Assembly (NCBI GenBank): GCA_022709545.1
Contig: JAKLIP010000002.1
Location: 248,001 to 312,000 of the forward strand
Reading direction: 5' to 3'
Length of the DNA stretch: 64,000 nucleotides
Source of the DNA: Patescibacteria group bacterium
GTDB taxonomy: Bacteria; Patescibacteriota; Minisyncoccia; Moranbacterales; GWC2-37-73
Part shown: in pieces, positions 5,517 through 44,257 of the stretch
Layout of the letters: every line of letters begins with the position of its first letter
Numbering within the stretch: the stretch's first letter is position 1
Notes under the pieces: model-generated
Databases searched by the model: none
What the model saw: only the letters and a program-made list of their open reading frames with translations
What the model was told of the DNA's origin: nothing
Translations under genes and position numbers: made by a program

Positions 5517-6350
5517 TTATAAAATATTCTCTATTTTCCTCCAATCTTCCACTGTCAGTTCCTGAGCGCGAGTATTTTTCGAAAAACCAAGCGCGATTAA
5601 TTTTTCTTCAGAAGTTTTTTTGTCTATTTGAAATCCATTAGAAAGATTATTAGCTAAAGTTTTTCTTTTGGCTGAAAATCCCGCCCGCACAATTCTAAAA
5701 AATTTTTTAACGTCCTGCTTGTTTCTTGTTTCTCGTCTGCCTGCCGGCGAAGCAGGTTTTTTGTTTCTTATGATTCTAATTACTGCACTATCCACTTTCG
5801 GCATCGGCTCAAAAGATTCTTTCGACACAGTGAATAAATATTCCGGCTGAGCATAGTATTGCACCGACACTGCCAAAATGCTCATTTTTCCTGCCTTGGC
5901 ACAGATTCTTTCCGCTACTTCTTTCTGCACCATCAGAATCATTTCACTCGGTGGAAATTTGGTTTCTAAAAATAATTTAATAATTGGAGCAGTAATGTAA
6001 TATGGAATATTAGCGACAACTTTATATTTAACTTCCTTAGCTTTCAGCTTCTTCAGCTTGTTAAAAATAAGCTCTGGAAGATTTATTTTTAGTATATCAT
6101 CATGGATAATTTCAATATTTTCTTTGTTACGCAACTTGTTATTTAACATTTCAACCAGTCGGTCATCCAATTCAATCGCCATGACTTTTTTGGCAACCTC
6201 AGTCAGCAGTTCCGTCAGCACTCCTTGCCCCGGCCCGATTTCAATGACAACATCATCAGCAGAAAGTTTCGCACTTTCAATAATCCGTTGCAAAATTGCC
6301 TCGTCTTTCAAAAAATTCTGTCCTAAAGATTTTTTCGCTTTGATTTCCAT
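5517..6350 (-). CDS. rsmA: 16S rRNA (A1518/A1519) dimethyltransferase RsmA/KsgA
   Basis: 277 aa. The SAM site (VIEIGPGQGVLTELL), KKSLGQNFLKD N-terminus and catalytic NIPYYIT motif are all present. It dimethylates two adenines in helix 45 of 16S rRNA late in 30S assembly. After VIRIIRNKK there is an extra basic stretch (PASPAGRRETRNKQD) encoded by a small GC-rich palindrome (CCTGC/GCAGG, about 5740-5757), which looks like a dispersed repeat inserted in frame. It lies between the G5/RlpA-like gene and pcrA. Confidence 0.96.
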   Translation of the reverse strand: MEIKAKKSLGQNFLKDEAILQRIIESAKLSADDVVIEIGPGQGVLTELLTEVAKKVMAIELDDRLVEMLNNKLRNKENIEIIHDDILKINLPELIFNKLKKLKAKEVKYKVVANIPYYITAPIIKLFLETKFPPSEMILMVQKEVAERICAKAGKMSILAVSVQYYAQPEYLFTVSKESFEPMPKVDSAVIRIIRNKKPASPAGRRETRNKQDVKKFFRIVRAGFSAKRKTLANNLSNGFQIDKKTSEEKLIALGFSKNTRAQELTVEDWRKIENIL

Positions 6351-35587: not shown

Positions 35588-36352
35588 ATGATTTTTACAG
35601 ATAAAAAACTGAAAATAAATAAAATCTACAATGAAGATTGCTTAAAATTAATGAAAAAAATTAAAAGCAACTCTATTGACTTGATATTTGCAGATCCTCC
35701 CTATAACCTAAGCAAAAGCAATTTTAAGATAAAATTCATAAAATCTGGCGGTTCTGATTTAAGCACAAATAAAGGGCATTGGGATAATTTTGGAGATATT
35801 GAATTCGAAGAATTTACAAAGAAATGGCTACAAGAATGTTATAGAATATTAAAAAATGAAGGAGCAATATGGGTTGCAGGAACTTATCATAATATTTATT
35901 TAACAGGATACTTATTAAAAAAAATAGGGCTTGAGCCTTTAAATGAAATAATATGGCACAAATCTGATGCTACACCAAATTTGTCTTGTACGAGATTTGT
36001 AGCTGATCATGAAAATTTCATATGGGCAAGAAAAACTAAAAAAAATACATTTAATTATGGTGAGATGAAAAAGATTAATCACGGAAAGCAAATGAGGTGC
36101 ATGTGGTATGGAGAAGCTGTTTTGACAAGAGGAAAAACTGCGGGAGGAAAAAAAATACATCCTACACAAAAACCAGAATGGCTTTTAGAGAAAATAATAC
36201 TAGCAACTTCAAATGAAAATGATATTATATTCGATCCTTTTATGGGTTCAGGGACTACTGCGGTTGTGGCGAAAAGATTAAAAAGAAATTTTATAGGTTC
36301 TGAAGTTGACAAGGGTTATTATATTGATTCACTTAAACGACTAAAAAAATAA
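35588..36352 (+). CDS. DNA methyltransferase, N6-adenine/N4-cytosine (beta-type order)
   Basis: 254 aa. Catalytic ADPPYNLSKS (about 32-41) precedes the SAM motif FDPFMGSGTTAVVAKRLKRNFIG (about 217-239), the order of beta-class enzymes such as MboIIM/RsrI. HPTQKPEWLLEKII is also typical. It modifies host DNA against a partner nuclease. A second methyltransferase begins 5 bp later, so the two are likely co-transcribed. Confidence 0.94.
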   Translation: MIFTDKKLKINKIYNEDCLKLMKKIKSNSIDLIFADPPYNLSKSNFKIKFIKSGGSDLSTNKGHWDNFGDIEFEEFTKKWLQECYRILKNEGAIWVAGTYHNIYLTGYLLKKIGLEPLNEIIWHKSDATPNLSCTRFVADHENFIWARKTKKNTFNYGEMKKINHGKQMRCMWYGEAVLTRGKTAGGKKIHPTQKPEWLLEKIILATSNENDIIFDPFMGSGTTAVVAKRLKRNFIGSEVDKGYYIDSLKRLKK

Positions 36353-36357
36353 ACTTT

Positions 36358-37149
36358 ATGAATTCACATTATTTAATATTCGGAGATGCTTTGGATATTT
36401 TGCCAAAAATCAATAAAAAATTCGATGCCGTAATTGTTGATCCTCCTTACAATACTGCTAATAAAAATACCAAGATATTAAAAGGAAGAAAGGCTAGATC
36501 ATCAGATTTTGGAAAGTGGGATTATTTTTCTGATGATGAATATCTATTATTTACTGATAAATGGATAAAGAATACAAAAAATAAAGTTAAAGAATCTGGA
36601 AATTTGTTAATTTTTAGCAAATTAGAATATATTAGTGATATAAAAAGAATATATGAAAAGCATGATTTTAAACACCATGCTACTATTATTTGGCACAAAA
36701 CTAATCCAGCCCCCCAAATTAGAAAAACAGGTTTTTTATCTTCATGTGAGGCAATTTTATGGGCAACGAAAGGATTTAATGAAAAAAAAATAGATTATAC
36801 TTTCAATTTTACAAAGCAAAATGAAATGCATAATCACATCAAGGCTGATTTTGTAGAAACTCCGATATGCATGGGCAATGAAAGAACGAAACATCCCACT
36901 CAAAAACCAGCCAAGGTTTTAGAGCACTTACTAAAAATATTTACTAATGAAAATGACTGGGTTTTAGATTGTTTTGCCGGCAGTGGAACGCTTCAATCTT
37001 CAGCGGATCAATTAAAAAGGAACAGTATAAGTATAGAGAATGACAATGAATATTTTGAAATAATGAAAAATCGAGCGAAAAAAAATAACACAACCTCGAA
37101 AATAGTTGTGTTAAAAAATAAAAATCAATTAAGTAAACTAAAATTTTAA
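36358..37149 (+). CDS. DNA methyltransferase, N6-adenine/N4-cytosine (second)
   Basis: 263 aa. VDPPYNTANKNTK (about 30-42), HPTQKPAKVLEHLL and VLDCFAGSGTLQSSADQLKRNSIS show the same beta-type order as the preceding gene, but the sequences differ outside the motifs. Two such enzymes suggest a non-palindromic recognition site with one enzyme per strand. Its 3' end overlaps the convergent nuclease candidate by 12 bp. Confidence 0.93.
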   Translation: MNSHYLIFGDALDILPKINKKFDAVIVDPPYNTANKNTKILKGRKARSSDFGKWDYFSDDEYLLFTDKWIKNTKNKVKESGNLLIFSKLEYISDIKRIYEKHDFKHHATIIWHKTNPAPQIRKTGFLSSCEAILWATKGFNEKKIDYTFNFTKQNEMHNHIKADFVETPICMGNERTKHPTQKPAKVLEHLLKIFTNENDWVLDCFAGSGTLQSSADQLKRNSISIENDNEYFEIMKNRAKKNNTTSKIVVLKNKNQLSKLKF

Positions 37150-38436
37150 AGGTATTTCTGTAAATGTTTCTTCATCCCAATTTGCTTCATAGCACTTGCG
37201 TTCTCCTCTTTCTAAACATAAAAATACATTAGGAATTCTTTGACCATTGGTTTTTCTATGTGTCTTGTATAAACTTAATATTCTTTTAGGATTCCATTCT
37301 TCTTCTGCAAAAAGCCATGTATCTACCCATGCATTACTTTCGTGATGCCTGTGATCTAAGTAGCTTTTCCAGTTATGTTCAAGTTCTAATTTTTGGGCTG
37401 TGCCACCCGAAAATGTTAAGTGAACATCGGGACCACCAGAGCTCGATACATTTACACCCACAACTTTCTTTTCTCCAACTTCAAATTCTTTTTGCCACTT
37501 GAGGAATTTCTCTAGAAAAATTATAAATTCATCTTCTTTGATTTCAGAAAAATCAGCTTCTTTATCACAGTGAGCCTCTTTTATTTTTTCCCAGGAATAT
37601 GAAAGCCTTTGAGGTATATTTTCATCTCCAGTTGTAAATTCGTCAACGGCTTCCCTTAGAGAATATAGCTTGTATTTATTATTGTCCGTATCAAAACAAA
37701 TTTCTTTTTCTAAATCAACCAATAATGTCAAAGGTTTATTATCAATCAAATCTTCCATTTTTATTGCAAATATTTTACTCCAAGGAGTATCTTTCGTAGG
37801 AATAACTATTAATGGATGAAGATTTTTCTTCTTTAACTTTTTTCCTTCCCAAAAATTAACTATACTGTACTCCAGAACTTTATTTTTTGAATCAATAAAA
37901 TTGTTAACTAACGATCTTATAAAATATTGACCATTTGCACTCCTTACGACAGATACTTTTTTGAAATTATCGTTATCTCTAGAAAGAGGTATGCTCTTAT
38001 CTTTTCCTAACATAACTTTTATATGTGCCTGTGTTTCCTTTACGGTGAAAAGCCATGCTTCTAATTCTAAAAGTTCTTTTAATTTTTCATTTGTAGTATA
38101 CGCAGTCATATTACTCTCATTTAGTATAATTTCACCATTACATACTGCATTAGCCAATCTTTTATCCCTGCCAATATAATATCTACTTACTATGGCATTT
38201 CCCCTTTTAACAAACCCTTTCCACGTAAGAAGTGTTGAAAAATTTCCTCTTAATCCACCAAAATTAGTATCATCCAAATACTTATAATCTTTTTTGTCTG
38301 ATCTTAAACGAACGAGATGTTCGGCATATTTATTTGCAATTCCAGCGAGATCATTTGTATTATAATAACCTTTATAATAAAATCTTGCTGTCCCTAGTGC
38401 TAAAAATAATATCTTAGGTATTTTTACTTGGTACAT
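37138..38436 (-). CDS. Candidate restriction endonuclease
   Basis: 432 aa from the ATG at 38436; an overlapping ATG at 38457 adds 7 residues. It is convergent with the two methyltransferases. A possible PD-(D/E)xK core is GGPDVHLTFSGGTAQKLELEH, with PD and the Glu of LELEH; the following segment (WVDTWLFAEEEW) is acidic. No family name can be given from motif alone. A TATAAT lies 10 bp before 38436. The nuclease role rests on context. Confidence 0.6.
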   Translation of the reverse strand: MYQVKIPKILFLALGTARFYYKGYYNTNDLAGIANKYAEHLVRLRSDKKDYKYLDDTNFGGLRGNFSTLLTWKGFVKRGNAIVSRYYIGRDKRLANAVCNGEIILNESNMTAYTTNEKLKELLELEAWLFTVKETQAHIKVMLGKDKSIPLSRDNDNFKKVSVVRSANGQYFIRSLVNNFIDSKNKVLEYSIVNFWEGKKLKKKNLHPLIVIPTKDTPWSKIFAIKMEDLIDNKPLTLLVDLEKEICFDTDNNKYKLYSLREAVDEFTTGDENIPQRLSYSWEKIKEAHCDKEADFSEIKEDEFIIFLEKFLKWQKEFEVGEKKVVGVNVSSSGGPDVHLTFSGGTAQKLELEHNWKSYLDHRHHESNAWVDTWLFAEEEWNPKRILSLYKTHRKTNGQRIPNVFLCLERGERKCYEANWDEETFTEIPLKF

Positions 38437-38440
38437 AGTT

Positions 38441-39355
38441 TTATTTATTATAACCATAACTTTGTTTTATTAGGTCAAAAACTTTTTCTAAATCATTTTC
38501 GCTTTGCAATTTTACCTCATAATCACCATTCCCCCAATGACCAACGGATTTTGGCTTAGTTAAGTCTCTGGCTATTGAATTTTTATCAATAAGTTTTCCA
38601 CTTTTCACATTTAAAAATATTTTTAAACTATTGCCAAGCACCACAATATCAACAAAATTAGTTGAAGTTTTATAGGCGATATACTTTGCCTTAGCCTCTT
38701 CAATAATATTTTCATCAAGTGCTGTGATCTTTTCTCGCAACTTATAAAAAAGTAATTTTATTTCCTTTTGCGCATTTTTCAGATGATCTTCTAATAAATA
38801 ATTTTTCTGAAGAACATTCTGCTTCTCTTTTTGATTTCTTGCTTTCTTTAATATGCCAGAAGTTGAAATTCTTACTTTTTGATAATTTTCTATGTCTAGA
38901 GATAAAATATCGTTTTCATAGATCCTATATCTTAGCAATTCAATATTTATAGGCAAAATATCCGCAGTGTCAATATCAAATTTATTATAGTTTTCTGCTA
39001 TACAGATAACCCTTGGCGAATCCCAATCAATTTCAACTGCAACTTTATTATTTCTGCATAATATTTCAAAATCAGCCTTATGATCTAAAAGCCATCGCAA
39101 ATAGGAGAGTCCTTGATTAATTACATTATCATTTTGGTTCTTTTTATATTCTATTATTGCGGGAGATCCGTTTTTATCTATTCCCAATGTATCAATTCTT
39201 CCGCCAAAACTTGTGGAATATTCATGGGCTAAAAAAGTGATATTCAAAACGTCTTCAAGATTATTCTCGAATAATTTTTGAAGTTTTTTTTCTAAATCTA
39301 AGCTTTTAGATAAAATCTTTTTAGTTTTCTCGCCTTGTATGCTAAATAATGCCAT
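38441..39355 (-). CDS. PD-(D/E)xK nuclease-like protein (DUF5655/NucS-like)
   Basis: 304 aa. GGRIDTLGIDKNGSPAIIEYKK (about 51-72) is a PD-(D/E)xK core (Asp...Glu-x-Lys), and QGLSYLRWLLDHKADFE matches the helix that follows in NucS/DUF91-like proteins. The C-terminal third (LNVKSGKLIDKNSIARDL, GHWGNGDYEVKL) matches DUF5655. Probably a nuclease or DNA-binding partner in the restriction locus. It is directly upstream of the restriction candidate. Confidence 0.82.
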   Translation of the reverse strand: MALFSIQGEKTKKILSKSLDLEKKLQKLFENNLEDVLNITFLAHEYSTSFGGRIDTLGIDKNGSPAIIEYKKNQNDNVINQGLSYLRWLLDHKADFEILCRNNKVAVEIDWDSPRVICIAENYNKFDIDTADILPINIELLRYRIYENDILSLDIENYQKVRISTSGILKKARNQKEKQNVLQKNYLLEDHLKNAQKEIKLLFYKLREKITALDENIIEEAKAKYIAYKTSTNFVDIVVLGNSLKIFLNVKSGKLIDKNSIARDLTKPKSVGHWGNGDYEVKLQSENDLEKVFDLIKQSYGYNK

Positions 39356-39996: not shown

Positions 39997-40347
39997 TTAA
40001 AATTCTCCTATATCTAATGGAATTCCTTTTTCAATTATATTTTCCAGATTAAGACACAATCTTTTCAGTTCATTCTCATTAGAGCATTGCTCTATTCTAT
40101 GCGCCAATGACTTAAGTAGATCGCCTTCTTTATAAAACCAACCGTGTAAAGAATTGGCCGCCTCATCACAAACAGCCCAGTATAAATTTTTACTATTAAA
40201 CATGCCAAAAAGTATATTGGATTTTGATAATTTCCATATTCTAACATCAGAGCAATAGTTTCCTTTATATTTTAAAAATAATCTAACACAAAAATCATCG
40301 AAAATGATTCTTGCTCGGTTAGCTCCGATTGATTCAATTACACCCAT
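39997..40347 (-). CDS. Hypothetical 116-aa protein downstream of a structured RNA
   Basis: Soluble, mixed alpha/beta, with three Cys (FDDFCVRLFL, YCSDVRIW, CLNLENIIEKG) and WAVCDEAANSLHGWFYKEG. No family recognised. It lies 30 bp after the terminator of the RNA at 40377-40554, on the same strand. That RNA could therefore be its leader. No SD is seen at its ATG. Confidence 0.6.
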   Translation of the reverse strand: MGVIESIGANRARIIFDDFCVRLFLKYKGNYCSDVRIWKLSKSNILFGMFNSKNLYWAVCDEAANSLHGWFYKEGDLLKSLAHRIEQCSNENELKRLCLNLENIIEKGIPLDIGEF

Positions 40348-40376: not shown

Positions 40377-40405
40377 AACAAAAAACGACTTAATAATTAA
40401 GTCGT
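40377..40405 (-). terminator. Terminator of the structured RNA
   Basis: ACGACTTAAT/ATTAAGTCGT palindrome followed by TTTTTTG on the minus strand. Confidence 0.85.
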
Positions 40406-40556
40406 CGAGAAGTTCCGCTTGAGTGGACGACCCGACGGGTACCACACTCAAAAGACACCGAAATGCCCCATCATGTGCGCCGAGCCGCCCGCTTAAAGGC
40501 GTGATGAAGCAAAATTACTGAGATTACTCTCAGTGTCTATATGAGTATGGTACCAC
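40385..40556 (-). ncRNA. Structured RNA of about 170 nt with competing helices
   Basis: A GC-rich island in AT-rich DNA. P1: GGTACCATACTC (40554-40543) pairs with GAGTGTGGTACC (40449-40438), 12 bp with one G-U. P2: AGACAC/GTGTCT (40538-40533 with 40458-40453). P3: CATCA/TGATG plus CGCC/GGCG around 40470-40506. P4: CTGAGA/TCTCAG (40518-40533), partly overlapping P2. After P1, TTGAGTG/CACTCAA (40451-40419) reuses the 3' arm of P1, so the two exclude each other. A terminator and an ORF follow. The layout suggests a riboswitch, attenuator or stand-alone RNA. Confidence 0.7.
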
Positions 40557-40561
40557 TTACA

Positions 40562-40590
40562 ATGTAATATAAAAATGGCTAAAAGTAAAC
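40562..40590 (-). promoter_or_regulatory. Putative promoter of the structured RNA
   Basis: TTTACT, 17-bp spacer, TACATT on the minus strand, about 7 bp before the P1 5' arm. A moderate match. Confidence 0.45.
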
Positions 40591-40641: not shown

Positions 40642-41442
40642 ATGTTTAAAAATGAAATTGAATTAGCAATAACAGTAAGCTCCCTTAAAAAAGAAGGCTG
40701 TATATTAAATGAGCAGTCATTGGAACTTATTGCTAAAAAAATAAATGCCATAGAAAGTTTAAAATCTCACATAAAAATGGGCGATTTTTTAAATGAATGC
40801 GGTGTAAAAAAAGATTTATATGGCCATATATCTACACTCAATTATATGGCTGAATCTTTAAAGACAAATTATTTCAACTCAAGACAAAAACTACTTCATA
40901 ATATATTGCTTTATTATTCATGCAAGAAAAACAAGAAAATACTATTTAACATTATTTGTAAATCCACGCATCCATTATTGTTTAAGGCAAATAAAAACGA
41001 GGCTGGTAAATTCAAAGAAAGCTTGAATAAAATATTAGAATATTCCAGTTATCGAATAGGAAACAATAAAATTGAAAAATTGAAGGAAAAAACAAGTAAA
41101 ATAAAAGTTGCCACATTTGAAAAAAATGGGATCGGTTATTTAAAGGTTGATAAGAAAAATATTGAAGTTGGTAACGCTGAAACAGCCAAGTATCAATTAT
41201 TAAAATCTTTTTGTAATCCTATTGGAACAGCACGAACTTTGGAATATTTATTTGAAAAAATAAAGAGATTTACCAAAAAAAATGCATCGGATGAAGCTGA
41301 TGAATATTTGAAAAAAAATTACAAGAAACTTAAAATTGAGGGAACAATAAAAGAGTTGCAGAGATTGTTATCAGCACATGATGTTAATAAAAAATTTAAA
41401 TTTAAAATTGACAGCGATAAAGCATGGCTATCTTATAGGTAA
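40642..41442 (+). CDS. Hypothetical 266-aa protein
   Basis: Lys-rich and mostly helical, with no signal peptide or membrane segment. The central part (IKVATFEKNGIGYLKVDKKN) may be a beta-domain, followed by a helical C-terminal region (NPIGTARTLEYLFEKIKRF, IKELQRLLSAHDVNKKFKF) that looks winged-helix-like. No family recognised. A terminator follows. It belongs to the accessory region left of the recombinase. Confidence 0.65.
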   Translation: MFKNEIELAITVSSLKKEGCILNEQSLELIAKKINAIESLKSHIKMGDFLNECGVKKDLYGHISTLNYMAESLKTNYFNSRQKLLHNILLYYSCKKNKKILFNIICKSTHPLLFKANKNEAGKFKESLNKILEYSSYRIGNNKIEKLKEKTSKIKVATFEKNGIGYLKVDKKNIEVGNAETAKYQLLKSFCNPIGTARTLEYLFEKIKRFTKKNASDEADEYLKKNYKKLKIEGTIKELQRLLSAHDVNKKFKFKIDSDKAWLSYR

Positions 41443-42586: not shown

Positions 42587-44194
42587 ATGGAAACAAAACA
42601 AAAATATCTGATGTATCTTCGCAAAAGTACCGAAGCGGAAGATCGTCAAACGCAATCTATTGAAAGCCAGAAAAAAGAACTGGAAAAATTAGCACGCCAT
42701 CTCGATGTTAAAATTGTCGGTGTTTTTCAAGAGAGCAAATCAGCGAAAAAGCCAGGTCGGGAACAATTCAACAAAATGCTGTCTGCTATTAAACAAGGCA
42801 AGGCAGATGGAATTATATGCTGGAAGTTAAATCGTCTAGCAAGAAATCCCGTTGATGGTGGTGAGATAATGTGGTTGCTTCAACAAGGACTCATCCAGTC
42901 CATCCAAACAGTCGGCAGAGAATACAAAACCGTAGACAATGTGATAATGATGAGTGTTGAATTTGGAATGGCGAACCAATATGTTATTGATTTAGGAAAA
43001 GATGTCCGACGAGGACTGTTGAATAAGGCAGAGCAAGGCTGGAGACCTGGTCGTGCACCGATAGGATATAAAAATGACAAAGGAACAGACCAAGGTAAAA
43101 AACAGATTTTTGTAGATGAAGTAAAATTCCCCATTGTTCGTAAGATGTGGGACTTGATGTTAACTGGCGACTATTCTGTTTCAAAAATTATCGAGATTGC
43201 CAACAATGAATGGGGTTTGCGAAGAATGTGCAAGGGGCAAGAAATAAAACTGCACGCTAGCCATGGATACGATATTTTTACCAATCCTTTTTATTGTGGA
43301 AAATATGAATGGACTGGTAAGGTTTATGAAGGAAATCACACACCGATGATAACCGAAGCTGAATTTGATTATGTTCAAGGACTTTTGGGAAATAAAACTA
43401 AGCCACAAACAAAACATAAAATTCTTCCCTATCGAGGAACTATCCGTTGCGGTGAGTGCGGATGTCATATTACTACCCAACTAAAACTGAAGCATATAAA
43501 AACCGAAAATGTTGTCCGAACATTCATCTATCATAACTGCACTAGAAAGAAGTTGAATGTTAATTGCAAACAAAAATCCATTACCTACAACGACATCAAC
43601 AAGCAGATTGCAGATAAGTTGGATAAAATCACTATACCTAAAAGTTTTTTGGATTATGCTTTGAAAATCTTAAGGCGAGATAACGAACTCGAAGTTGATA
43701 ATAGGAACATAATGATTGAAAACCAACAAAAAGCATTGAAGAAATGCCAAGATAGGATTGATAAGTTGTTAGATATCTACATCTCACCCGAAAATGCCAA
43801 CAAGGATTTAATTGGCGATGACGAATTCAAGGAAAGAAAAGCGACCCTACTGAAAGAAAAAGACAAGATTCAACAATCTTTAGATGACATAAACCAGCGA
43901 GCCGATGAATGGTTAGAACTGACCGAAAAAACATTCAAGTTTGCGGTATATGCAAAACATAATTTTAATGTTGGTGATTATACCGAGAAAACCAACATTT
44001 TACGGGCTTTGGGATCAGATTTCACCCTCAAGGATGGCGTGCTAGATATCACACTAAGAAAACAATACCAACTCATTGAAAAAGGATTGGAAACCATAAA
44101 GGCAGAATGTCCAAGGTTAGAACTGACTAATTTTGCCTTAGATAAAACAAAAACAGCCCAATCTAAGGCCGTTTTTGAACTTCTGAGCGGGTAA
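42587..44194 (+). CDS. Large serine recombinase (site-specific integrase)
   Basis: 535 aa. N-terminal resolvase domain (about 4-140): catalytic Ser in MYLRKSTEAEDR, ESKSAKKPGREQFNKML, and CWKLNRLARNPVDGGEI (catalytic Arg pair). A recombinase domain (about 165-265, APIGYKND...GKYEWTGKVYEGNH) and a zinc ribbon (CGECGCH...CTRKKLNVNC) follow, then a coiled coil. It integrates or excises a mobile element. Its last codons and stop fall inside the 3' end of tRNA-Gly, marking the attachment site. Confidence 0.96.
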   Translation: METKQKYLMYLRKSTEAEDRQTQSIESQKKELEKLARHLDVKIVGVFQESKSAKKPGREQFNKMLSAIKQGKADGIICWKLNRLARNPVDGGEIMWLLQQGLIQSIQTVGREYKTVDNVIMMSVEFGMANQYVIDLGKDVRRGLLNKAEQGWRPGRAPIGYKNDKGTDQGKKQIFVDEVKFPIVRKMWDLMLTGDYSVSKIIEIANNEWGLRRMCKGQEIKLHASHGYDIFTNPFYCGKYEWTGKVYEGNHTPMITEAEFDYVQGLLGNKTKPQTKHKILPYRGTIRCGECGCHITTQLKLKHIKTENVVRTFIYHNCTRKKLNVNCKQKSITYNDINKQIADKLDKITIPKSFLDYALKILRRDNELEVDNRNIMIENQQKALKKCQDRIDKLLDIYISPENANKDLIGDDEFKERKATLLKEKDKIQQSLDDINQRADEWLELTEKTFKFAVYAKHNFNVGDYTEKTNILRALGSDFTLKDGVLDITLRKQYQLIEKGLETIKAECPRLELTNFALDKTKTAQSKAVFELLSG

Positions 44195-44215
44195 GCAGAA
44201 TCGAACTGCCGTCTC
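44186..44215. mobile_element. Putative attachment site of the serine-recombinase element
   Basis: The 3' end of tRNA-Gly joins the recombinase reading frame here. The tRNA stays intact. The other end of the element is not identified; no long copy of this segment was seen elsewhere in the window. Confidence 0.5.
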
Positions 44216-44257
44216 ATCCTTGGCAAGGACGTATAATAGCCACTATACGATACCCGC
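44186..44257 (-). tRNA. tRNA-Gly(GCC), integration target
   Basis: Acceptor GCGGGTA/TACCCGC, anticodon loop TTGCCAA (GCC). The recombinase gene stop (TAA, 44192-44194) is in its 3' acceptor strand. Confidence 0.96.

Follow-up and report, generated by a model that had tools for sequence, protein, structure and literature searches.

The window, a 64,000-nt stretch of a 375-kb contig from a host genome with an estimated contamination of 9.6%, carries on its minus strand a structured RNA of 177 nt, which lies between the divergent first gene of a mobile-element core block and a small ORF on the RNA's own strand. The features of this region are:

35588–39355: a pair of N6_N4 DNA methyltransferases, a DUF5655 protein weakly similar to NucS, and a 439-aa protein that matches nothing in Pfam
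39997–40347, minus strand: first downstream ORF, with an ATG 38 nt past the terminator hairpin and a 116-aa product that matches neither Pfam nor PHROG
40380–40556, minus strand: structured RNA, made up of a P1-P2-P3 arm, a P4 hairpin, a pseudoknot, the P5 terminator hairpin and a U tract
40561–40589, minus strand: promoter, with a −35 TTTACT (40584–40589), a 17 bp spacer and a −10 TACATT (40561–40566), 4 nt before the RNA
40642–41442, plus strand: the core block's first gene, divergent from the RNA, with a 266-aa product that matches neither Pfam nor PHROG
42587–44194, plus strand: large serine recombinase (Pfam Resolvase/Recombinase), the end of which overlaps a tRNA-Gly (44185–44257)

A first-pass annotation of the same DNA had described a layout like that of a riboswitch or attenuator, and this description holds: a −35/−10 pair precedes the folded core, the core covaries among homologues, and a terminator is followed directly by the co-directional ORF at 39997–40347 that the annotation had pointed out. 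Folding of 232 nt gave a predicted energy of −77 kcal/mol, compared to −50 ± 4.1 kcal/mol for shuffled sequences (z = −6.6; 0 of 200 shuffles). The annotation had recognised no Rfam family, and in agreement with this, Rfam scans at gathering and permissive thresholds returned nothing above cut-off at the RNA locus, the only Rfam matches in the window being 12 tRNAs. The segment 40380–40556 is therefore confirmed as a genuine structured RNA outside all Rfam families, and comparison of its copies indicates that it is a new, pseudoknotted RNA family with strong covariation. The best sub-threshold Rfam match at the locus, pntA, scored 19.7 bits against a cut-off of 54 and was set aside as chance.

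The paired elements of the RNA, together with one alternative pairing discussed below, are:

40542–40554 with 40438–40450, minus strand: helix P1, GGTACCATACTCA with TGAGTGTGGTACC; pairing in 98.9% of cells, two-sided changes in 9 of 13 pairs
40529–40537 with 40454–40462, minus strand: helix P2, GACACTGAG with TTCGGTGTC; 92.8% paired, 8 of 9 change on both sides
40502–40510 with 40465–40473, minus strand: helix P3, GCTTCATCA with TGATGGGGC; 95.2% paired, 7 of 9 change on both sides
40485–40490 with 40425–40430, minus strand: pseudoknot between the P3 apical loop (GGGCGG) and the P4 loop (TCGTCC); paired in 14 of 14 copies
40431–40436 with 40404–40409, minus strand: helix P4, GTCGGG with CTCGAC; 97.6% paired, 2 of 6 change on both sides
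40397–40403 with 40387–40393, minus strand: P5 terminator hairpin, GACTTAA with TTAAGTC, which extends through GAC (40404–40406) and GTT (40384–40386)
40380–40385, minus strand: U tract of the terminator, U-rich in 16 of 16 copies
40445–40452 with 40418–40425, minus strand: alternative pairing by sequence complementarity, TTTGAGTG with CACTCAAG

P1 is the closing helix that the first-pass annotation gave as 12 bp and that measures 13 bp, and the terminator it reported corresponds to the hairpin and U tract at 40380–40403 on the minus strand, extendable to 40406. A search for homologues and a covariation test had also been advised there; homologues were found, and their covariation was assessed in a covariance-model alignment of 14 copies and 50 pairs, with shuffled columns as the control. 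Standard pairs make up 97.0% of the cells across the 50 pairs. Two-sided changes occur in 31 of the 50 pairs (P1–P4 and P5) compared to 17.1 in the shuffles, none of 500 of which scored as high, although these controls are optimistic and overstate independence because the copies are mutually related, and the covariance-model alignment leans to its own structure. The signal was lost when the 3′ partners were slid along the alignment, and a plain MAFFT alignment of nine sequences gave 19 pairs with two-sided changes as against 9.5 after shuffling.

The pseudoknot, which the first-pass annotation did not include, was outside the model used for the alignment. It consists of six pairs, with the consensus GGGCGR in the P3 apical loop and YYGUCC in the P4 loop, and its variants GGGCUA/UAGUCC, GGGCAA/UUGUCC and GGAUGU/GCAUCC are all still paired. 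A scan of all column pairs ranked the known P1–P3 pairs at the top and also brought out columns 81/148 and 82/147, which belong to the pseudoknot; the other unmodelled pairs that emerged form no helices. Unpaired bases are conserved in both pseudoknot loops. A further hairpin that we considered, P3b (CGCCC/GGGCG), was unsupported by the comparison, its GGGCG pairing instead in the pseudoknot.

A DNA search of 96 related genomes identified nine further full or partial copies with 73–90% identity across the matched parts. A first covariance model, built from nine sequences, found 14 intact and two truncated copies in 14 of the 131 genomes of the host's order (Ca. Moranbacteria), spanning 12 genera and seven families, and a second model, built from 14 sequences, found no additional ones. 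Covariance scans that took in 380 genomes from across the phylum and 384 from across the class returned no convincing copy outside the order, and neither pattern scans of viral contigs nor blastn against phages and plasmids gave a match. The distribution is patchy, which is what carriage by mobile DNA would lead one to expect. Two 24-bit matches (G153 and G467) were discarded because reverse-strand noise scores 20–26 bits. In one truncated copy (G037; L043/L061) P4 and the terminator are all that is left, behind an ORF that by eye is GIY-YIG-like; in the other (G080; L084/L060) the 3′ end of a tRNA replaces the 5′ part, and the gene start is still 8 nt past the terminator hairpin.

In the window, the tRNA-Gly is the likely integration site; an attachment repeat of this tRNA was not found within the window. 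The divergent gene or block is present in related elements too. A large serine recombinase is encoded on the strand opposite to the RNA in nine loci, and L082 has a tyrosine-type integrase (PHROG match) instead. When a common partner protein was sought across 16 loci, the serine recombinase (9 of 16) was the only one to recur widely; a 456-aa protein provisionally labelled primase-like is found in four, its L037 copy without a PHROG match. The G082 copy lies behind a clpP-like gene, so identified by eye, and no recombinase was seen within 19 kb, which indicates that some copies lie outside any evident element. The gene content at 35588–39355 of the window suggests a restriction-modification or defence locus as cargo.

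The arrangement at both ends of the RNA is nearly constant. Promoter-like −35 and −10 sequences with 16–17 bp spacing end 4 nt upstream of the RNA in 12 of 14 intact copies, the exceptions being L079 (16 bp and 5 nt) and L044, which has a weak match only. At the 3′ end, every copy has a CGACUUAAU..AUUAAGUCG-type hairpin with a U-rich tract behind it, and the start codon of a co-directional gene lies 4–15 nt past this hairpin in 13 of the 14 intact copies, the window copy being the one with 38 nt. Counted over all 16 copies, 14 have an ORF start no more than 17 nt past the hairpin (exceptions: the window copy and the truncated G037), compared to 5 of 113 terminator-like hairpins elsewhere in this DNA (Fisher p = 7e-13), an exploratory figure in that the spacing, like the P4/P5 overlap described below, was noticed and counted on one set of sequences. 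For these counts, ORFs of at least 40 aa were called mechanically; the starts in the 14 copies fall 5–15 nt past the hairpin by the first scan and 4–14 nt past it by a second, independent one. In nine intact copies the spacing from hairpin to AUG is 7–9 nt. Shine-Dalgarno enrichment is absent in the host (3 of 51 long window ORFs compared to 6 after shuffling), so that an AUG right behind the U tract would be usable. Some genes in the window start ~6 nt past a TATAAT, which suggests near-leaderless mRNAs.

The downstream genes are always on the RNA's strand and belong mostly to unrelated families, with relatedness limited to L041/L083 and L042/L081/L084. Among those scanned against Pfam there was one clear DNA methyltransferase, the others falling below cut-off. 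Within their first 90 residues, the products of 11 of 15 first genes have a hydrophobic segment, compared to 59 of 214 background ORFs (p = 5e-4, by a crude scoring). The distance to the start codons is nearly constant although the genes are mostly unrelated, which argues for a role of the RNA in cis.

Two exclusive folds had been proposed in the first-pass annotation, in which the 3′ strand of P1 would instead pair as UUUGAGUG/CACUCAAG. The complementarity, which is between the P1 3′ strand and the P4 loop, is present, but its proposed role as a switch is not supported. In the alternative helix 89.9% of cells are paired as against 87.7% after shuffling, a level reached in 30 of 500 shuffles, several copies have mismatches, and by nearest-neighbour energy the helix costs 13–33 kcal/mol relative to the P1 fold. 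A better candidate for an exclusive fold is the overlap between P4 and the base of P5, which was likewise not part of the first-pass annotation. Three nucleotides (40404–40406; C189, A/G188 and G187 by alignment column) are common to both and pair in either helix; the shared C, itself invariant, has an invariant G as its partner in P4 as well as in P5, and in one copy, L054, column 188 has changed in concert with both of its partners. With the shared nucleotides P5 has an energy of −8.4 to −11.5 kcal/mol (~−9.5), and without them −2.6 to −5.3 kcal/mol (~−4), so that the terminator hairpin loses ~5 kcal/mol when P4 takes them. The P5 extension is paired in 100% of cells, yet 169 of 500 shuffles reach its covariation; this support is weak because the extension is nearly invariant. 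No conserved anti-terminator pairing with the whole P5 arm was found among the copies.

These data make it somewhat probable, in our view, that the RNA is a cis-acting leader with a conditional terminator for mobile-element cargo genes. The polymerase would start at the dedicated promoter, transcribe the 177-nt pseudoknotted leader of the cargo transcript and then meet an intrinsic terminator immediately before the first cargo gene. The gate would be the competition between P4 and P5 for 40404–40406: as long as the pseudoknot keeps P4 closed, P5 would be left as a weak AU-rich hairpin and the polymerase would read through into the cargo gene, and if P4 opens, the full terminator would form and transcription would stop. 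A signal acting on the pseudoknot or P4 would in this way admit transcription to the cargo gene. We propose that the pseudoknot and P4 weaken the terminator because P4 and P5 share three nucleotides with the accompanying loss of energy; we infer that the terminator works, that the stability of P4 and the pseudoknot controls it, and that a ligand, a protein or the state of the host sets this stability. In favor of a leader are the fixed promoter distance, the AUG close behind the hairpin, a 5′ leader whose pseudoknotted structure is conserved and covaries, as in riboswitches, and the presence of LOOT RNA in the equivalent slot of a sister element, where a cargo gene follows too. Against it, the downstream genes have no function in common, whereas those under metabolite riboswitches usually do, and in the window copy itself the start codon is 38 nt away.

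Alternatively, the sequence could encode a small RNA that stands alone, transcribed from its own promoter to its own terminator and working in trans or as a scaffold for proteins, with the cargo gene a mere neighbour. It is a complete transcription unit, its conserved structure is richer than that of most attenuators, and both pseudoknot loops contain conserved unpaired bases. LOOT, which has the Rfam type 'Gene; sRNA', occupies the equivalent slot in a sister element. We regard such an RNA as possible but rather unlikely: a mere neighbour gives no reason for gene starts 4–15 nt past the hairpin in 14 of 16 copies, and in a search for antisense targets the longest complements of either loop in the surrounding element were no longer than the shuffled expectation. 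The position at the start of mobile-element operons, where the leader is constant and the cargo varies, recalls antiterminator RNAs such as HK022 put, EAR and conAn2, and operon-start antitermination is known from conjugative plasmids, where conAn2 RNA acts (PMC8955417). An RNA of this kind would bind its own polymerase and take it past the adjacent and later terminators of the cargo operon; that the P4/P5 overlap would then be needless, and that there is no Rfam match whatever, makes this improbable.

Spacing of the hairpin and AUG bears on a different proposal, that of a structured translation-initiation leader, in which the hairpin and U tract ~8 nt before the AUG would position the ribosome. 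The 7–9 nt seen in nine intact copies and a host that does not use Shine-Dalgarno sequences would suit it, but a U tract with a hairpin is typical of an intrinsic terminator, the spacing in the window copy is 38 nt and other genes of the host manage without such a leader, and we give the idea little credence. The switch of the first-pass annotation, with the P1 3′ strand alternating between P1 and the P4 loop, seems highly improbable, even though CUUGA/UCAAG or longer complementarity is found in most copies: its covariation does not clearly exceed that of shuffles, the energetic cost given above is large, and by the time the P4 loop is transcribed, the P1 3′ strand has already met its 5′ partner.

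A cis-acting leader with a conditional terminator has parallels in known systems. Terminating riboswitches and attenuators share with the 177-nt RNA a clamp helix (P1), a pseudoknotted core, a terminator before an ORF and a strand common to a core helix and the terminator. Unlike these, the 177-nt RNA matches no known class and sits on mobile elements, and the genes downstream of it share no pathway; no common ligand or pathway was found among the first genes, which are mostly unrelated. The P4 CI and P1 C4 immunity RNAs are leader RNAs of mobile elements that act with terminators and do so by pairing with leader targets. Pairing targets of the 177-nt RNA, by contrast, were not found in the surrounding element. 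The put and conAn2 antiterminators are structured operon-start leaders on mobile elements (PMC9378689, PMC8955417). The 177-nt RNA resembles HK022 put, EAR and conAn2 in being a structured leader at the start of an operon and differs from them in having no family match and in ending in its own terminator, past which read-through is a prediction.

A parallel within the order is provided by LOOT (RF03000). The 456-aa protein (L037:10909–12279) was used to trace related elements, and one of these was found in G087, in which the 177-nt RNA family is absent. In this serine-recombinase element, a highly structured sequence (z = −4.8) separates the core block from the first cargo gene, and this sequence is LOOT RNA (L088:9680–9905); the shared slot is shown for this one element and does not belong to the Rfam definition. 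Of 124 genomes of the order, 29, the host's included, carry LOOT. Like the 177-nt RNA, it has a promoter-like sequence upstream and a co-directional gene behind it, mostly for a membrane protein: such a gene begins 29–117 nt past the model end in 18 of 19 copies examined, and 16 of the 19 downstream proteins score at least 1.6 for a membrane segment anywhere in the protein. The two RNAs differ in their helices and in the distance to the start codon, which for LOOT is mostly 29–87 nt past the end of the Rfam model, and the RF03000 model gives no match at the 177-nt RNA locus, though the host carries LOOT elsewhere. Thus, two RNA families between which no relationship was detected seem to fill similar positions.

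We suggest tentatively, as a possibility that we would not call likely, that interchangeable unrelated leaders (the 177-nt family and LOOT) form a modular gate in one slot of Moranbacteria integrative elements, which would silence new cargo until a host signal arrives. The cargo under such a gate would be mostly membrane proteins and sometimes DNA methyltransferases. RNA regulation in the host lineage seems little studied, and the 177-nt RNA goes with mobile elements and not with a metabolic pathway. If the reading of the RNA as a cargo gate is true, it would show how such elements govern the genes they bring along, and the slot common to both RNAs would suggest a testable function for the orphan LOOT RNA. 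The host's own copy of LOOT lies outside the window, on contig C10 at 6110–6236 (L097; 87.8 bits), and is followed by a gene whose product has CxxC pairs as well as a membrane segment.
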